A program made the translations under genes and the position numbers. Below, piece after piece: positions 5,789-39,679 of a stretch of DNA of 64,000 nt; position 1 is the first letter of the stretch; each line of letters opens with the position of its first letter. Source of the DNA: Planctomycetaceae bacterium (GTDB lineage Bacteria > Planctomycetota > Planctomycetia > Pirellulales > Pirellulaceae); NCBI GenBank assembly GCA_002709225.1, contig PAQH01000127.1, positions 19,475-83,474 on the forward strand. Direction: 5' to 3'. Below the pieces are notes generated by a model. That model was not told where the DNA came from. It saw nothing but the letters and a program-made list of their open reading frames with translations, and searched no databases.

Positions 5789-7216
5789 ATGGCTGGAAAA
5801 GAAACGTGGGACCAACACGTACTGTTCCACAATACACGCAGGCAGTTTCTCTCCCAGTGTGTTACCGGGATGGGGGCTCTGGCGATGTCAGCGTTGGCTG
5901 ACCGAGCACCAGCGCGCGGGGCGCCGGCCCAACCGCCTCCGCGGGCCAAACGGATGATCTATTTGCACATGGCGGGGGGCCCATCCCAGCTCGATTTGTT
6001 CGACCACAAACCGCTGCTGTCGCAGCGCCATGGCGAATTGTGTCCGGCCGAGTTTTTTGAAGGCAAACGATTCGCGTTTATCAAAAGTCGGCCGAAGTTG
6101 TTGGGCACACCGTTTCGGTTTGCGCGGTATGGGCAAAGTGGTGCTGCGTTGTGCGAACATGTGCCTCACCTGCGGCGTGTCGTGGATGATCTCTGCTTCG
6201 TGAAGTCAATGCACACGGACCAATTTAATCATGCGCCCGCACAACTGTTTATGCAGACCGGCTCGCCGATTCTAGGACGACCCAGCCTGGGCGCGTGGCT
6301 GTCTTATGGGTTGGCGAGCGAAAGTCAGGAACTACCGGCTTTTGTGGTGCTGGTGTCGGGCCAACGGGGGCCGAGCGGCGGTACCGCGTTATGGGGAAAC
6401 GGGTTTCTTCCCAGCGTCCACCAAGGTGTACGTTTGCGGTCACAGGGCGATCCCGTGTTGTTTCTCACCAATCCTCAAGGGGTGGGGCCCGCCGAACGCC
6501 GGCTGGCGTTGGATAGCCTGCGTGCGCTCAACCAATTACGTCTTCGTCAAACGGGACAGCCGGAGATTGCCACCCGCATTGCGCAGTACGAATTGGCCTA
6601 TCGTATGCAACGCAGCGTTCCGGAGTTGATGGCAGTGGATCGAGAGCCGGCGCATATCCACAAGTTGTACGGCACGCAACCTGGCAAGAAATCCTTCGCC
6701 AACAACTGTCTGTTGGCACGGCGGTTAATAGAACGAGGCGCGCGTTTCGTTCAACTCTATCATTGGGGATGGGATTCTCACGGCTCGAGTGCCGCGGAAA
6801 ACCTGCGTTACAGCTTTGTAGAGCGATGCCGGCAAACCGACCGTGCGACAACGGCGCTAATCGTTGATCTCAAACAGCGGGGGTTACTCGACGATACCCT
6901 GATAGTGTGGGGTGGGGAATTCGGTCGCACACCGATGGCTGAGGTCTTTACGAAGAAGTACATTGGCCGCGATCACCATCAGCATGCCTTTACGATGTGG
7001 ATGGCAGGCGGCGGGATCAAGCCGGGAGTGACCTATGGTGCTACCGACCCGCTGGGATATGCGGTGAGTGAAAAACCCGTCCATGTTCATGATCTACAGG
7101 CAACCATCCTGCACCTGATGGGCTTGGATCACGAATCATTGACGTATCGTTTTCAGGGACGGGATTTCCGCCTGACGGATGTGCACGGTCGTGTCGTTTC
7201 GGCGATTGTCGCGTAG
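5789..7216 (+). CDS. DUF1501 exported protein of pair 1
   Basis: DUF1501 proteins are uncharacterised and appear related to the alkaline-phosphatase/sulfatase fold. Family blocks seen here are MAGGPSQLDLFDHKP near the N-terminus, GGEFGRTP, GRDHH followed by MWMAGGGI, and the C-terminal HDLQATILHLMGLDHE. The conserved Asp, Glu and His residues of these blocks are plausible metal ligands. The N-terminus NTRRQFLSQC is a Tat-like signal followed by a hydrophobic, alanine-rich stretch, so folded export is likely. The protein ends with the tail FRLTDVHGRVV, shared only by the DUF1501 proteins that sit behind a DUF1553 gene. It is 74 bp downstream of its partner and probably cotranscribed. Confidence 0.88.
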   Translation: MAGKETWDQHVLFHNTRRQFLSQCVTGMGALAMSALADRAPARGAPAQPPPRAKRMIYLHMAGGPSQLDLFDHKPLLSQRHGELCPAEFFEGKRFAFIKSRPKLLGTPFRFARYGQSGAALCEHVPHLRRVVDDLCFVKSMHTDQFNHAPAQLFMQTGSPILGRPSLGAWLSYGLASESQELPAFVVLVSGQRGPSGGTALWGNGFLPSVHQGVRLRSQGDPVLFLTNPQGVGPAERRLALDSLRALNQLRLRQTGQPEIATRIAQYELAYRMQRSVPELMAVDREPAHIHKLYGTQPGKKSFANNCLLARRLIERGARFVQLYHWGWDSHGSSAAENLRYSFVERCRQTDRATTALIVDLKQRGLLDDTLIVWGGEFGRTPMAEVFTKKYIGRDHHQHAFTMWMAGGGIKPGVTYGATDPLGYAVSEKPVHVHDLQATILHLMGLDHESLTYRFQGRDFRLTDVHGRVVSAIVA

Positions 7217-7270
7217 GAGGCGTCTTCGGCCGGCGGACAGCGACGGGGATGTTGAACGTGAGGATCGCAG

Positions 7271-8038
7271 ATGACGTCGGATTGGTTGTTGGCGTTGGAA
7301 CAGACAGGAGCCATGGAGGTTGTCCGCGGCAGCCGCGCCAAAGTGGCCGAAGCGGTGCAACGCGGAGCGGATCTGCGCTTGTTTCTGGTGGCTCGCGGTT
7401 ATGAAGAGACCCTCTATTTCCAACAGACTTATGCGGGGAAGTCGGATGCGTTTGCGGGCTTGATGACCCATCATCACTCTCATGAACACCGGGGCCAAGC
7501 CCTGGTGGAGCCCTACTTTAGTTTCTTTAAGTACGACTCTCTGGGAGCGTTTTCCCACATTAAATGGCTTCCCGACAATCAGGTCCTGCAGGAGCCACAG
7601 CCTTATCAATACGGCGTTTATCGTTGGTACGTATGTGATCGGTGGAGGGTTATTTACGAACACGATAAGGATGGAAATGCCCTTGCGGGAGACCTGGAAG
7701 AGTTAAAGGATTTGATTCGGCGTGGCTGCAGCCTGAAGGTGGGGGTGGAGCAACTTTTCAATCTACCTGGTGCCGGCGAACAGGGCCCCGCGCACGTCTG
7801 CTTCCTGACCATCATGCAACCGCTGATTAAGGATGGTCATGTCGGTGCGAATTGCGATTTTGTGCTCAGCGGAACACCGCAGTGGCCGTGGTCGTGGGAA
7901 GATGAAATCTCGCTGGGAATGGTCTGGCCCTGGTCCTCAGGTGAAGTGATCGGCCATTGGGCGAAACCAGGTGCGTTACCCTTTACACGCGAAAAGGCGC
8001 AATGCGCCATGCGGTGGCTGGTTGCTGATCGCGGCTAA
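7271..8038 (+). CDS. Protein of unknown function (255 aa)
   Basis: I do not recognise this protein. It has no signal peptide or membrane segment and seems cytoplasmic and soluble. The region around residues 65-80 holds a histidine cluster (MTHHHSHEHRG) and the middle is rich in aromatic residues (FSFFKYD, YQYGVYRWYVCDRWRVIYEHD). The C-terminal third has several Trp residues (QWPWSWEDE, MVWPWSSGEVIGHW). GAGGATCGCAG before the ATG gives a ribosome-binding site. It follows the pair 1 DUF1501 gene by 54 bp on the same strand and could be the last gene of that operon. Codon use looks like that of its neighbours, so it is likely a genuine gene. Confidence 0.7.
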   Translation: MTSDWLLALEQTGAMEVVRGSRAKVAEAVQRGADLRLFLVARGYEETLYFQQTYAGKSDAFAGLMTHHHSHEHRGQALVEPYFSFFKYDSLGAFSHIKWLPDNQVLQEPQPYQYGVYRWYVCDRWRVIYEHDKDGNALAGDLEELKDLIRRGCSLKVGVEQLFNLPGAGEQGPAHVCFLTIMQPLIKDGHVGANCDFVLSGTPQWPWSWEDEISLGMVWPWSSGEVIGHWAKPGALPFTREKAQCAMRWLVADRG

Positions 8039-31039: not shown

Positions 31040-33892
31040 CTACTTGCAGCCCTTGTCGTTCGCGGCGTGGTGTTTTGTCAGGACGTCCACCACATGTGGG
31101 CGGCCCGCCGCCACTCGTGTCGCGTCCAGCTGTACTTTGAAAAGGTCCTGCAGGAAGGGCAGGATACCGGCCAATTCGCGTGTCCAGGGGAGGCTGGCCA
31201 GCTCCCGCGGCGTCTGCCCGACACCATTCTTCAGTTGGTAGTCGGCGCCTTTGGCCAGCAACAACTGGACAATCTTCCCACGCCCCAGGAAGGCGGCTGT
31301 GTGCAGTGAAGAGGTACTGTCGCGATTCAACTTATTGAGGTCCGCGCCGTGTTCAATCAGTAATGCGGCGGCGTCATGCTGGCCCGCCAGGGCGGCCAGG
31401 CTGAGCAAGGTGAGTCCATGTTCCCCCATCGTGTTGGCGTCGGCGCCTGCTACTAGTTGCTCGCGGAGTGCGGACAAATTGCCCGTCAAGACGGCCGCGC
31501 GGAGCGGCGCCTTTAGCGCCGCCACTTCCTTTCCGGTCGGTGCGCCGCGCGACCGCAACAGGTCGGCGACTTGGGGTCGCCCTTTTTCGATGGCGTCCAG
31601 ATCAAGTTCGATCTGCAGCAGCGTGTTAATGAAACCCATGAATTCCTCGAGTTCCTGACTCCACGAGGCGGCCGCATTGTCTAGTGGAGTTTGCCCTTTA
31701 TCATTCGTCATGTCGAGGCGCGCACCCTGCGCCAGCAGTAACTTCGTCAAGTCAAGCCTTCCGGTAAACGCGGCGCTATGCAGTGGTGTGGTCTGGTCGC
31801 CGTTGGTCGCGTGCACGTCGGCACCCCGGGCGATCAGCATTTTTGCGATTTCTGTTTGGCCGCTCAACGCCGCCAGATTCAGGAGCGTCATCTGTTTGTC
31901 GTCTCGGGTATTCGCGTCGCCTCCATCATCGAGATATTGTGATAACGCCGCGTTGTCGCCCCGCGTTACCCAGCGGGCGGTACGTTTCGCCATTTCGATG
32001 GCCAAGCCTGTGCCATGCGCCGCGTTCCGTTCACGGAGAAAGTTGGTCACCTGCGCTCGACCATTCTTGACCTCTTCGAAATCAAAGGGGAGTTGCAGGA
32101 TGCCACTGATAAATTGGACAAGGCCCTGGATCTCAGGATTCCAAGGGACAAATGCGTTGTCCAGGGGAGTCCTGCCTTCACCGTTTCGCGCGTTGAGGTC
32201 AGCTCCAGCTGCCACCAGAAGTTTTGCCACTTCGACCTGGCCCAACAACGCCGCCAGATGGAGTGGCGAATCTCTCTTGTTGTTGAGGGCGTTCGCGTCA
32301 GCGCCCTCCCCGATGAGGTAATCAACCAACGTGTCTTCTCCGACTAACGCCGCGGCTGCCAGGAGCGTGTCGCCCTGTTCGTTGCGGGCGTTGACATCGC
32401 CCCCCGAGGATAGGTGTTTTCGTACGGTCTCGAGCTCGCCCCGCCGGGCGGCACCCCAGACGGATTCATCCCGTTTTTGTCCCGGCCGGTTGCCCCCAAT
32501 CACGAAAGGAGGTTCAGGACGTTTCGCCCAGAGCGGCATCCCCTCCGCCATCTCGGCGAGCAGGTCGCGGCGTCGTTGACGCACGAATCCGCGGGTACGC
32601 TCGAGAGATCGGATCGACCGTTTCTGCGAACGGGTGAGGTGTGGCTGCAGCCGGGATTCAATTCGATCGATCTGGTTGAGGAGCTCCTGTTCCCGCCAAC
32701 ACTCTGCCAGCAACATGCTGAGCGTCTTGGCGTACCGTCGTCTTCCCTCAGCGAGTTGGTAGAGTTTGTGCGCAACCAGGCCCTTGGTTTTTACCGACAC
32801 CGGAGCCCGGGGATCGGGGTCGAGTTTGTTCACTTTCTCAAACATGCAGTCGGCACCCCATGGCAGGAAATGGAATTTGTCGGTGTCCGAATTGAGGTAG
32901 ATGAAATAGTTGTTGTTGTTGGCAGAATAACCATCCCAAAAACCAAGCAGGCCTTCCATGGCCCAAAAGCGGTAGAACGAATCGAGGTCGACGTGAGCAC
33001 CGATGGCTTCTTCGGTGACTTCGCCCTCGCCGGTGAGAACGTTGATGAGTGCCGCGATCTTCTCGCGTCCCGGCTCGTCCGGCCCGAACTTGTTCTCGAA
33101 ACTGGCAGCCCAACCGGGGTGAAAGTCCACCACAGTGCCCTCGTAGAGAGTCCCCTCGGCATTACCGTAGGCGCGGGCGATGAAGGCTTCGCGGACAGGT
33201 TCGACGTGGGAATAGACCCCCAGCAGTTTCCCGTTTACGGTCACTCTGGCATGGGCGCAGCGGGGAGCGGGAATACCCGCTTTGCGAAACAGCGTGTATC
33301 CCAAGTGCTGACTGATATGGCCAGTGTCCTGCTGGTTGTTGTTGAAAGTTAAGTTCGTGAGGCCGTCGATCGACCCAGGCGAATCCTGATAGTTCAACTT
33401 GATTTTCAGCGAGGGTCGGTGTGTGTTCTGGGAACCAATAAAACCCTTCTTGCGTAGCCCTACGTTAGAAAACCGGACGCCATCGATCGTGACATTTGCC
33501 GCGACGTACGTATAAGGCGCGTCAATGTGCCCCTCGCGACGTTTGGCCTGAAGGGCCTCTGCAATATTGCGCGATTGATGTCGGATCGTGTCCCAGTCTT
33601 TTTGCAGAACCTCGATTTTCACGTCCAGAACGCGGTCGTCGGGAAACAACGTATCGCGGGTTAGCTGGGCGGGTGGCGCCACCTCGGTGGTGTTGGCCGT
33701 CGGCTCACCGGGTGGCGTTACCACCGTCGCGGACGGGCTTGGCACCGCGGGAGGGGCAGTGGCCGGCGCTGGCGGATTGGCAAGCTGGGGGGGTGAAATG
33801 GCGACGGGGGAATCCCCGCATCCGCAGCTCGCCGCAGCGCTTGCGCAGACCAACAGTGCCGCCAACCGCAATTTGTGTCGCACTCTAAACAT
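31040..33892 (-). CDS. CotH-kinase-domain lipoprotein with ankyrin repeats
   Basis: The N-terminus looks like a lipoprotein signal (lipobox-like AASC at 20-23), then a Pro/Ala/Thr-rich linker to about 78. Residues about 80-440 are a CotH-type atypical protein kinase: NVGLRKKGFIGSQN, KIKLNYQD, GVYSHVEPVREAFI, and an LPWGADCMFEK block in place of the usual PWDxD, so one Asp is missing. Residues about 480-950 carry three sets of ankyrin repeats (for example DTLLAAAALVGEDTLVDYL, DSPLHLAALLGQVEVAKLL), each closed by an unusual insertion after TPLDNA. CotH kinases modify spore-coat proteins in Bacillus; the planctomycete role is unknown. It is transcribed divergently from the small lipoprotein gene. 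Confidence 0.85.
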   Translation of the reverse strand: MFRVRHKLRLAALLVCASAAASCGCGDSPVAISPPQLANPPAPATAPPAVPSPSATVVTPPGEPTANTTEVAPPAQLTRDTLFPDDRVLDVKIEVLQKDWDTIRHQSRNIAEALQAKRREGHIDAPYTYVAANVTIDGVRFSNVGLRKKGFIGSQNTHRPSLKIKLNYQDSPGSIDGLTNLTFNNNQQDTGHISQHLGYTLFRKAGIPAPRCAHARVTVNGKLLGVYSHVEPVREAFIARAYGNAEGTLYEGTVVDFHPGWAASFENKFGPDEPGREKIAALINVLTGEGEVTEEAIGAHVDLDSFYRFWAMEGLLGFWDGYSANNNNYFIYLNSDTDKFHFLPWGADCMFEKVNKLDPDPRAPVSVKTKGLVAHKLYQLAEGRRRYAKTLSMLLAECWREQELLNQIDRIESRLQPHLTRSQKRSIRSLERTRGFVRQRRRDLLAEMAEGMPLWAKRPEPPFVIGGNRPGQKRDESVWGAARRGELETVRKHLSSGGDVNARNEQGDTLLAAAALVGEDTLVDYLIGEGADANALNNKRDSPLHLAALLGQVEVAKLLVAAGADLNARNGEGRTPLDNAFVPWNPEIQGLVQFISGILQLPFDFEEVKNGRAQVTNFLRERNAAHGTGLAIEMAKRTARWVTRGDNAALSQYLDDGGDANTRDDKQMTLLNLAALSGQTEIAKMLIARGADVHATNGDQTTPLHSAAFTGRLDLTKLLLAQGARLDMTNDKGQTPLDNAAASWSQELEEFMGFINTLLQIELDLDAIEKGRPQVADLLRSRGAPTGKEVAALKAPLRAAVLTGNLSALREQLVAGADANTMGEHGLTLLSLAALAGQHDAAALLIEHGADLNKLNRDSTSSLHTAAFLGRGKIVQLLLAKGADYQLKNGVGQTPRELASLPWTRELAGILPFLQDLFKVQLDATRVAAGRPHVVDVLTKHHAANDKGCK

Positions 33893-35936: not shown

Positions 35937-38294
35937 CTAACCCGCAGTGCCGGGTAGTCTGGCGCCGCGCACACGTGGTCCATTCAAAGCCGTACCGATC
36001 CACGTATAACGCACCGCACAGTGATAAATGATCAGCAGCAATACCGTCGGGCAGCCTGCCACGGTGAGAAATTTGGCGAACACGGGAATTTGCCAGGTGT
36101 AGACCCACCATTGGCACAGGACGACCAAGGGGACATGCGTCAGGTAGAGCCAGTAGGACGCGTCCGAAAGGTAGCGGACGAGTGGGTTCGCTCGACGAAA
36201 ATATTTGCGGAAAAAACCGAGCATGCCAAACGAAATCGACCAGGTGTAAAGGACCTGGAGGAAAATGTCCAATGGGGCCGGCACATCCACCTGGGTCATG
36301 CCGTACGGCAGAATCACAAGTAGCCCAATAGCCAGGTGGAGCCACCACCAGTTCCCCAGCCGACCTTCCTGGTCGTCGCTACAGAAATAGAGGGCGCCGA
36401 ACGCGAAAAAAACGGAGAAATATCCCAGCACATGTGGCGCGGGGAGGATGCCTGTGGAGGTGTCGGGGCCGAACCAGGGTAATTGCAGGACCATCACCCA
36501 TTGAAACAACATCGTGACAGGCAACAGCCACAGGTAGCGGGCCGGACCGGAAATCAACCACGCGGGAGGTGGTCTCACATTCCATTTTTCGGACGCCCTG
36601 ACGACAGCGGCAAAAAGGGCCACCAGCCAACACAAAAACCACAGGAACCAGAGATGCTGGAACACGGGAACATAGAAGAGCACGAACCCGCTGAGACCGT
36701 AGGTCCCGACCAGCCCATCGAAATCGATCAGACCGCGTCCCAGGTAGGGCCGTGATTTGGGAACTTCGTCGCCGGCGGCGGGTTGTGAGGTAGGCTCTTG
36801 TTGTTTGGCCTCCAGACGGAACGAGGCGACCGTCGTACCAACCAACGCCGCGAGGCTAGCGATATTCATCATGGGCACCAGCACCAGGGTCCCCACCACC
36901 AGCGGTAACGCGATACGGCGATACCGTTGCCGCAACATGGCGCGCAGGCCCCGACGTTGCCAAAGCATACACGTGAAAAACCCACTCAGTAAAAAAAACA
37001 GTGGCATGCGAAACCCGTGTACTGCGGAAAAGAACCAGCGAAATCCATCATGTTGCTGCGGGTCTTGAATAAACCAGGCCCCCACGCCAAACGGCATGGC
37101 ACTATGCAACCCAATCCCCAGCAGCATGGCGACGCCACGCAACGCGTCAAGATCATACCATCGCGGGTCAGAAGTCGTGCCGTCTGTGGTCTTCGCGATG
37201 GCCCCACCGTGCGCTGCCACAATCCGCGTTGCGGGGTCAAACCCCGAGTCACGACAAGTGGCGGCGAGTGTTCGCAATTGCCCAAGCCGCACGCAATAAA
37301 TTCCGAGCAGAGTCACGCAGGCCAGCAAACAAGGAAGCGTAATAGGGGGCAGGAATGTACCTAGGAACAAAACAGAGAACCACCTGCCCAACTGCTTGGC
37401 CTGCGCCGCGCGTTCAGGAAAACGACGGCCGAACGCGGACGCATACGAACGCGAAAGATTTCCGGTGACAGAAAAGTTCCCTACCAGCGCCACGCAAGGA
37501 ACAGCGAAAAAACAGACCTGCCAGAACGCAATCTGACGATGACCCACCGGCAGCTGGTAAAGTGCCCACGTCAGGCATCCCCAGGTAAAGACATGAAAGA
37601 GGATCACTAGCCCGGTAGTGAGGAGGACCACCACGGCCGCGATGCCCACAGCGATCCGCGATGTCCCGGGTCCGTCTCGACCGCCTAACTTCGCGACCAC
37701 GTCGGCGCGGCCACGCTGCAGGATCGCGCGATCGGTTTCCAATCCGAGCTGGCGCATCCGGCGTCTCCCCCGCACCCACGACAGTCTCGCGGTGTCGAGT
37801 GGTATTTCTCCACTCGGCGTGATCAGACGCGGGTCGGCTCCCCGTTCGAGCAATAACGCCGTGGCTCCCGCCTGACCCATCAACGCCGCGTCGTGGAGTG
37901 GTGTCGATCCGTCCCGGTTGCGTGAATTGGGATCGACGCCGTGGTCAAACAATTGCACCATCGCTGCGGTATTGCCATTGGCGGCCGCCCATGAGAGCGC
38001 GGTGCGGCCATGGATTGGATGGTGGCGTGATAGGTCAATACCCCTGTTTAGGTATTCCTCAATCGCACCTTCGTGGTTCTGTTGAATCGCCTGCCAAATG
38101 GTCTCCGGAAAGCGATGATGCTCGGCCATGGTATCCGCCGCCGGCGCGAATTTCCGGATCGCGTCTTCCAGCGGGGCCTCCTGCGCGGTGACGGGATTGC
38201 CATCACACCACAACAGCAGACCGCAGATAACGCCACAAACAACCGCGTGCGGACTCGTCGGCGATTGCAGACACTGCTGAGTGAGACCGGGCAT
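35937..38294 (-). CDS. Acyltransferase-3 membrane protein with N-terminal ankyrin repeats
   Basis: The ORF track starts at 38417, inside the end of the LRR gene; the ATG at 38294 is preferred because an export-like signal (AVVCGVICGLLLW) follows it, though no clear ribosome-binding site is seen. Ankyrin repeats are at about 60-190 (GRTALSWAAANGNTAAMVQL, GSTPLHDAALMGQAGATALL), ending in IPLDTARLSW. Several membrane helices follow, then an acyltransferase-3 domain (LDALRGVAMLLGIGLHSAMPF, FFLLSGFF, about ten helices). Such enzymes O-acylate cell-surface glycans; OpgC is the nearest well-known relative. The ankyrin part is probably exported. It lies downstream of the LRR gene on the same strand. 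Confidence 0.83.
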   Translation of the reverse strand: MPGLTQQCLQSPTSPHAVVCGVICGLLLWCDGNPVTAQEAPLEDAIRKFAPAADTMAEHHRFPETIWQAIQQNHEGAIEEYLNRGIDLSRHHPIHGRTALSWAAANGNTAAMVQLFDHGVDPNSRNRDGSTPLHDAALMGQAGATALLLERGADPRLITPSGEIPLDTARLSWVRGRRRMRQLGLETDRAILQRGRADVVAKLGGRDGPGTSRIAVGIAAVVVLLTTGLVILFHVFTWGCLTWALYQLPVGHRQIAFWQVCFFAVPCVALVGNFSVTGNLSRSYASAFGRRFPERAAQAKQLGRWFSVLFLGTFLPPITLPCLLACVTLLGIYCVRLGQLRTLAATCRDSGFDPATRIVAAHGGAIAKTTDGTTSDPRWYDLDALRGVAMLLGIGLHSAMPFGVGAWFIQDPQQHDGFRWFFSAVHGFRMPLFFLLSGFFTCMLWQRRGLRAMLRQRYRRIALPLVVGTLVLVPMMNIASLAALVGTTVASFRLEAKQQEPTSQPAAGDEVPKSRPYLGRGLIDFDGLVGTYGLSGFVLFYVPVFQHLWFLWFLCWLVALFAAVVRASEKWNVRPPPAWLISGPARYLWLLPVTMLFQWVMVLQLPWFGPDTSTGILPAPHVLGYFSVFFAFGALYFCSDDQEGRLGNWWWLHLAIGLLVILPYGMTQVDVPAPLDIFLQVLYTWSISFGMLGFFRKYFRRANPLVRYLSDASYWLYLTHVPLVVLCQWWVYTWQIPVFAKFLTVAGCPTVLLLIIYHCAVRYTWIGTALNGPRVRGARLPGTAG

Positions 38295-38398
38295 AGATGT
38301 TTTAGGCGGTGAACGAAGCGGTTCGCTGGTGGAATCGCGTGGGGTAACGGGAGTTATTTGGAAGGTGTGAGAACTTTTGCCTGTAGGAGTCCGGATGG

Positions 38399-39679
38399 TT
38401 AGTGGTGAATCACACATCCGGCCAGCGCCTTGCGCAACTTCGCAACCCCTTCCTTCGTCGTCTCGGTGTCGGTCAGCACCAGTACCTTTAGACGCGGCAG
38501 GTTTTCCAAGTGCTTCAATCCCTGGTCACTGATTAGAGTACTGTTGAGGTAAAGTAGCTCCAGGCTGCGGACATCCGCCAGTTGAGCGACGGCCGCGTTC
38601 GTCAGAGGATTAGCACTTAGATAGAGGAGTTGTAGTCGTGGAAAACGGGCGATCCGCGCAATGCCTGCATCCGAGATGCGGGTTCGGTTGAGATAGAGAT
38701 GTTCGAGTTTTTGCAGTGGCTTCAGGTGCCGTAACCCCTGGTCGGTGATCTCCAATCCCCCCAGTCCAAGTGACCTCAGGTTGGATAGTCTCCGCAAGTG
38801 TGCAAGCCCGGAGTCAGTAACCCGGCTGTGGGCCAGCACCAGAACTTCCAGATTGACCATTTTCGCGAGATACGCCACGCCCGCGTTCGTGACCGCGGTA
38901 CCTTCGATACTGAGACGTTGCAAACCGGTCAACGTTTGCAGGCTCGCCAGCCCTAAATCCGTAATCGCCGTACCTTCGAGGGTCAGACGTTCAAGTTCCA
39001 GCAAACCTGAGAGGTTCTCCATACCGTCATTGGTCACCGCAGTCCCACTTAAGAACAGGCGTTTCAACGCGCGGAGCTCGCGGAGATGAATCATGCCTGC
39101 GTCGGTGGTTTGCGTCCCGCCGAGCCCCAGGTACTCGAGACGTCTTAGCTGTGCTATAGACGCGACGCCCACGTCGCCCACGGTGGTATTCTTCAACGAG
39201 AGTTGCCGGAGTTGCGGCCACCGCCGCAACTCGGACACTCCTTGGTCGGTGAGCCGCCAATCGGTAAGATTGAGAGCGTCGGCGGGCGCCAACGCGGACA
39301 GCATGTGTTTCAGACCAAGGTCGGTGCGCGCTCGCGACGGTAAGTCGATGTGGCTCAAGTTAAGTGCTCGCAGATGCATCAAACCGGCGTCGGTGACACG
39401 GGTTTCTGTGAGATACAACTTCTGCAGCTGAGTAACTCTCTTGAGGTGCGCGAGTTCCTTATCGCCAACGCTCGCTCCAAGGGTCAGGGTGGTCAAACGA
39501 GGCAGTCCCGCAAGTGCCGGCAGATGCGTGTTGGCGCCTGCGGTGTTCGTTAGATTGATGCCAACAATAGCACCGCGGGAATTGCGGACAATGGTTGCAC
39601 CGGTGCCTTCCCACTGCGCGCTCGGATCCGTGCAGCCGCAAAAGACCAGGGAAATGCAAACCAGCAACTTGTGCCTCAT
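38399..39679 (-). CDS. Leucine-rich-repeat lipoprotein
   Basis: From the ATG at 39679 the sequence starts MRHKLLVCISLVFCGC, a signal that could be a lipoprotein type with Cys acylation; the ORF track adds 14 residues from a GTG at 39721. The rest is about 14 LRR units of roughly 24 residues with the pattern LxxLxxLxLxxTxVTDxGLxxL (for example LSGTAVTNDGMENLSGLLEL, LAHSRVTDSGLAHLRRLSNL). Such VTD/ITD-type LRRs are common in planctomycetes and serve in binding. Stop codon lies within the possible upstream start of the ankyrin/acyltransferase gene, so the two probably form an operon. Confidence 0.85.
   Translation of the reverse strand: MRHKLLVCISLVFCGCTDPSAQWEGTGATIVRNSRGAIVGINLTNTAGANTHLPALAGLPRLTTLTLGASVGDKELAHLKRVTQLQKLYLTETRVTDAGLMHLRALNLSHIDLPSRARTDLGLKHMLSALAPADALNLTDWRLTDQGVSELRRWPQLRQLSLKNTTVGDVGVASIAQLRRLEYLGLGGTQTTDAGMIHLRELRALKRLFLSGTAVTNDGMENLSGLLELERLTLEGTAITDLGLASLQTLTGLQRLSIEGTAVTNAGVAYLAKMVNLEVLVLAHSRVTDSGLAHLRRLSNLRSLGLGGLEITDQGLRHLKPLQKLEHLYLNRTRISDAGIARIARFPRLQLLYLSANPLTNAAVAQLADVRSLELLYLNSTLISDQGLKHLENLPRLKVLVLTDTETTKEGVAKLRKALAGCVIHH

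Follow-up and report, generated by a model that had tools for sequence, protein, structure and literature searches.

Fam20C-type secreted kinases are kinase-like enzymes acting outside the cytoplasm, and enzymes of the kinase fold almost always need a metal-binding Asp. A FAM20/CotH group has been recognised (PMC9758233). For the spore-coat kinase CotH of B. subtilis, the variants D228Q and D251A have both been described as catalytically inactive (PMC7821199). CotH of B. cereus (5jd9) was the sole convincing solved relative, as judged by sequence (E 7e-13), of the protein described here. This protein is encoded within the window, i.e., the whole stretch of 64,000 nucleotides from a Planctomycetaceae bacterium (contig PAQH01000127.1) that was analysed. 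The genome concerned is planctomycete-type, comprises 6.1 Mb in 167 contigs and is 83% complete. The CotH-ankyrin gene is real, and the G+C content of its ORF by codon position (0.65/0.45/0.69) is coding-like. Its features and the upstream neighbour are listed in Table 1.

Table 1. Features of the CotH-ankyrin gene and its upstream neighbour in the window.
Feature	Position	Strand	Basis
CotH-ankyrin gene, 950 aa	31040-33892	-	ORF, Pfam, codon-position G+C
Export signal, residues 1-23, with weak lipobox AAS-C23	33824..33892	-	read from sequence
Pro/Ala/Thr-rich linker, residues 24-79	33656..33823	-	sequence
CotH kinase-like domain, residues 80-450	32543..33655	-	PF08757, 5jd9, AlphaFold, Foldseek
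Glu251 within TLYEGT	33140..33142	-	column counts
Catalytic-loop region, residues 313-332, E...WDGYxxNxNNYFIY, with D320 and N328	32897..32956	-	alignment counts
PWGAD, residues 344-348 (Gly346 at D251 position, Asp348 at +2)	32849..32863	-	alignment, counts
Ankyrin set 1, residues 474-630	32003..32473	-	own HMM of sets, Pfam
Ankyrin set 2, residues 635-790	31523..31990	-	own HMM of sets, Pfam
Ankyrin set 3, residues 792-948	31049..31519	-	own HMM of sets, Pfam
Acyltransferase-3 (MdoC-like) membrane protein with ankyrin set, upstream neighbour	35937..38417	-	Pfam; NCBIfam MdoC below cut-off

Pfam matched residues 153-426 to the CotH family PF08757 with 118.9 bits against a cut-off of 23.8 (E 4.4e-34). 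An AlphaFold model of residues 73-474, built from 26 aligned sequences, reached a mean pLDDT of 90 and a pTM of 0.90. Its top Foldseek matches were 5jd9 (E 7e-19) and 5jda (E 1e-18), with TM-scores of 0.72 by query and 0.80 by target length, and CtkA, HipA and PI3/PI4 kinases ranked below these two. Among viral structures, a fold search with the whole protein returned ankyrin-type matches only. As judged from the model, the CotH kinase fold is retained, and the CotH-type kinase domain proposed in the initial annotation was thus borne out by the Pfam profile and by the model's best match, B. cereus CotH. The protein is a member of PF08757 by profile and fold; it is not a canonical CotH kinase, as the Asp equivalent to D251 is absent. 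The same annotation had regarded the setting as unusual for CotH. This did not hold, since CotH domains are common in the phylum (47 of 148 planctomycete genomes).

The window protein shares with CotH of B. cereus and B. subtilis the fold and the equivalents of D228 and of the Asn following it, and its P-W turn comes after the same strand as in B. cereus CotH. Unlike the spore-coat kinase, it has Gly at the D251 position and Asp at +2, carries an export signal and an ankyrin tail and is not a spore protein; identity over the fold alignment is about 17%. It can be likened to the Fam20C-type kinases by analogy only: these too are kinase-like and extracytoplasmic, but their metal-site residues differ from those of the window protein. 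PF08757 proteins of the Asp type from planctomycetes (e.g., L001 and L005, which are encoded in the window's own genome) match it in family, phylum and size of the kinase core; in contrast to it, they retain the Asp equivalent to D251, and their residue at column 251 is mostly Lys or Arg. Genes of this Asp type were also seen in tandem runs, with some four to five genes in 5-9 kb (G039:C176 and G011:C61). In six proteins among the closest planctomycete relatives (L006, L011, L013, L040, L042 and L043), the CotH domain is interrupted in its middle by an insert of about 175-190 aa, located just after the position of window residue ~292. This insert (YDDGFVAYLNG...) had no Pfam match and is absent from the window protein.

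Alignment with 5jd9 placed Gly346 opposite the first Asp of PWDYD and D320 opposite the Asp of FDG. In the numbering of the B. cereus chain, the Asp residues of FDG and PWD are 224 and 247; since both numbers are four below those of B. subtilis D228 and D251, they were taken as the equivalents of the latter, on the basis of this numbering and offset and not of the B. subtilis sequence. The initial annotation had noted that an active-site Asp is missing from PWGAD. As Gly346 faces the D251 equivalent and the D251A variant is inactive, it had named the right residue. The loss is, however, not peculiar to one protein. PWGxD was found in the window domain and in all eight relatives of 40 to 60% identity (9/9), and in a main sample of 240 non-redundant CotH domains, part of which had been found via a PWG-containing pattern, Gly346 occurred in 110. 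A loss unique to the window protein was therefore rejected; the replacement runs through a whole class.

The residue pairs at positions 346 and 348 of the 240 domains were Gly-Asp (109), Asp-Asn (60), Asp-Asp (54) and Asp-Glu (8), with few odd ones. A conserved alternative Asp nearby, which according to the initial annotation would make the loss only apparent, was found in sequence terms: 109 of the 110 Gly346 domains have Asp at +2 and are here called the GxD class. Position 348 varied among the 125 domains with Asp346 (60 Asn, 54 Asp, 8 Glu and 3 others). Over-counting of PWG by the pattern search was considered and dismissed for this pairing. A control sample of 128 domains, collected mainly via the Pfam model (two rows, L157 and L159, came from the window-domain search), contained 13 Gly-Asp, 1 Gly-Asn and 112 Asp-first domains, i.e., the same pairing of Gly and Asp, with Gly-Asp in 13/128.

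A quick maximum-likelihood tree, calculated with the catalytic and PWG columns removed, required two state changes and grouped 78 Gly-type rows together, all on the same side of a single branch (SH-aLRT 88). The single domain among the 240 with Gly346 and no Asp at +2 (L197) fell apart from the other Gly-type rows, inside the Asp type. L197 and its relative L295 (71% identity) read WGMN or HGMN instead of PWDxD, and both lack Asp at +2. Judged from these motifs, this lineage is the better candidate for a true loss and thus a candidate true pseudokinase.

Other active-site residues are also fixed in the Gly type, some of them (E313, WDGYxxNxNN and the acid at 251) as features of its own. D320, N328, E313, W319, G321, Y322, P344 and D348 are invariant in it, N325 and N327 nearly so, and D320 and N328 were kept in 100% of the Gly-Asp domains (D320 in 109/109). 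An acidic residue (Glu or Asp) occupies column 251 in 109 of the 110 domains of the Gly type, as against Lys or Arg in 116 of the 125 domains of the Asp type. At column 159, Lys was present in 85% of the Asp type and Arg in 89% of the GxD class. Glu251 is also present in six Asp-type domains, which weakens the case for a strict link between it and Gly346. The residue pattern is suggestive of a site that was rebuilt and not of one in decay. However, the couplings derive almost wholly from one clade, so that shared ancestry alone could explain them, and together with the six Asp-type domains this means that the pattern is not proof of rebuilding.

Two readings of the altered site have to be weighed here. 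The protein may well be an exported phosphotransferase of the CotH family that belongs to the GxD class as a separate group, is active with relocated metal ligands and is aimed by its ankyrin sets; from the sequence comparisons, we regard this as the likeliest of the readings considered, at about even odds. D348, perhaps with the class-specific residues E251, E313, N325 and N327, would rebuild the metal/ATP site and yield an active enzyme. The retained fold, the complete conservation of D320 and N328, the pairing of Gly346 with Asp348, the near-single clade, the acid at column 251, the ankyrin fusion in 62 of 81 close relatives from three phyla and the export-like signals in most of them speak for this reading. 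Against it, the D251A exchange kills B. subtilis CotH (PMC7821199), a shift by two residues need not preserve the metal geometry, Lys is replaced by Arg at column 159, and the stray Gly lineage (L197) has Glu at 251 too, though it lacks Asp348. These same observations, i.e., Gly where an Ala variant is dead, the exchange at column 159 and a stray Gly-Asn lineage showing that such losses occur, together with the nature of ankyrin repeats as binding modules, would fit a pseudokinase scaffold in which metal-dependent catalysis is lost and the domain and the ankyrin sets serve as an envelope binding platform only. We consider this scaffold unlikely, though worth keeping in mind: D320, N328 and D348 do not vary among 109 diverse proteins from three phyla, which is unexpected if only the surface matters. 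Thus, of the two options offered in the initial annotation, an altered kinase appears better supported than a mere scaffold. A large, conserved class without the metal Asp, with the catalytic Asp kept and a nearby Asp fixed, would provide a test of the limits within which a kinase site can be rebuilt.

The protein had also been described as a predicted surface lipoprotein. Export is supported by its N-terminal hydrophobic signal and by export-like signals in most relatives. C23 is preceded by A-A-S, which fits a loose lipobox pattern without Leu at -3. In a simple scan, a lipobox was present in 2 of the 62 ankyrin-fused relatives, and the majority of these carry a plain hydrophobic signal without one. 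Since the relatives mostly have such plain signals, export appears to be a general property of the family, in contrast to lipidation. Lipidation of the window protein is plausible from its own N-terminus, whereas lipid anchoring is not a family trait. Disorder of the linker was indicated by pLDDT values below 50 over residues 1-33 and 35-74.

Fusion of three ankyrin sets to the CotH domain was confirmed by Pfam and by our own HMM of the sets. Ankyrin families matched with E-values down to 1.8e-50, which, like the value for CotH, cannot be put down to chance, and five stretches (PF12796 and others) exceeded the Pfam cut-off. Each set is about 155 aa long, consists of ankyrin repeats followed by a helical tail, is modelled as helical hairpins and shares 38-41% identity with the other two. 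Matches in NCBIfam to Legionella ankyrin effectors and to MzaA lay far below cut-off and were set aside as ankyrin cross-matches. In the proposed phosphotransferase, the C-terminal sets would aim the kinase by binding to extracytoplasmic proteins that are its partners or substrates.

The same kind of set occurs on other proteins. The neighbouring gene 2 kb upstream encodes one N-terminal ankyrin set of the type found in the CotH gene, joined to an acyltransferase-3 domain that is weakly MdoC-like (NCBIfam, below cut-off). In Fuerstiella (L050), a related acyltransferase gene with an ankyrin set adjoins a CotH-ankyrin gene. Of 199 planctomycete genomes, 11 were found to encode this acyltransferase family, and most of these 11 had no close CotH-ankyrin relative; all members examined carried the ankyrin set, mostly inside the acyltransferase domain. 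The MdoC-like ankyrin acyltransferases (the neighbour, L050, L263, L264 and others) therefore resemble the CotH-ankyrin proteins in their ankyrin-set module and in a membrane or envelope setting, but they are a different enzyme and mostly hold the set within the catalytic domain. In addition, the same genome encodes a stand-alone 519-aa ORF (L283, G000:C7:50643-52004) with three ankyrin sets and a lipobox-like signal (FAGC). Given its presence on CotH, acyltransferase and stand-alone proteins, the set is a module that exported or membrane proteins have in common. No conserved operon was found around the CotH-ankyrin genes, whose flanking genes differ from genome to genome; the sole recurring neighbour was the ankyrin-acyltransferase, once (L050). 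It is possible that this neighbour is a partner of the CotH-ankyrin protein, and the shared module could bring two envelope-modifying enzymes to common partners.

The resemblance of the neighbouring acyltransferase to a periplasmic glucan modifier also bears on whether the protein transfers something other than phosphate to protein. An active enzyme on the kinase fold could, e.g., act on a glycan or lipid or transfer AMP. The charge changes from Lys to Glu at 251 and from Asp to Gly at 346 would suit an altered reaction, and lipid kinases are among the nearest non-CotH folds. Nevertheless, CotH is closest in fold and residues by a wide margin, and we consider a transfer of this kind improbable.

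A scan for relatives covered 84,980 species genomes and yielded 501 stretches that encode them. The best 80 of these 501 loci came from Poribacteria, Verrucomicrobiota and Planctomycetota and contained 81 distinct Gly-type ORFs, of which 62 are fused to the same ankyrin set, present once, twice or three times (40/45 in Poribacteria, 5/14 in Verrucomicrobiota and 17/22 in Planctomycetota). The fusion thus recurs among close relatives in three phyla, and by sequence the GxD class is present in at least three bacterial phyla. No ankyrin set was seen on Asp-type CotH domains, many of which had been fetched as bare domains without flanks. In the class to which the window's genome belongs, matches at E 1e-40 or better were found in 2 of 99 genomes, the window's genome included, so that the distribution is patchy. 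These data also bear on a further alternative, in which the protein is a CotH kinase of the ordinary kind, the change to PWG is without consequence, and the ankyrin tail is unrelated and its fusion serves no specific role. Ankyrin repeats join many proteins, and 19 of the 81 close relatives lack the sets; yet one and the same composite module is found fused to CotH in three phyla, and among 110 members the pairing of Gly with Asp is nearly without exception. We therefore regard an ordinary kinase as very improbable.

Returning to the active phosphotransferase, a broader picture is offered tentatively and is in our view rather doubtful: the usual DFG-type metal Asp would have moved by two residues in active GxD enzymes, along with changes of charge at other places in the active site, and in Planctomycetota, Verrucomicrobiota and Poribacteria these enzymes would take part in an extracytoplasmic complex for modification, assembled by ankyrin modules that other envelope enzymes share. 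That one ankyrin module recurs on extracytoplasmic enzymes of two kinds, kinase-like and acyltransferase, points to an as yet unstudied bacterial modification system. The bacteria concerned include abundant sponge symbionts.

Ankyrin genes in Poribacteria were already known (PMC3909097). In the open-access literature, searches combining CotH with ankyrin or with Poribacteria returned only articles on other subjects, as judged by titles and abstracts. One poribacterial genome contains two adjoining CotH-ankyrin genes (L089:3154-8151). At another locus, a pair (L053:177-1916 and 5789-7528) consists of CotH ORFs of equal length and with the same motif that lie in opposite orientation at the ends of a 7.7-kb contig; this pair is probably an assembly artefact.
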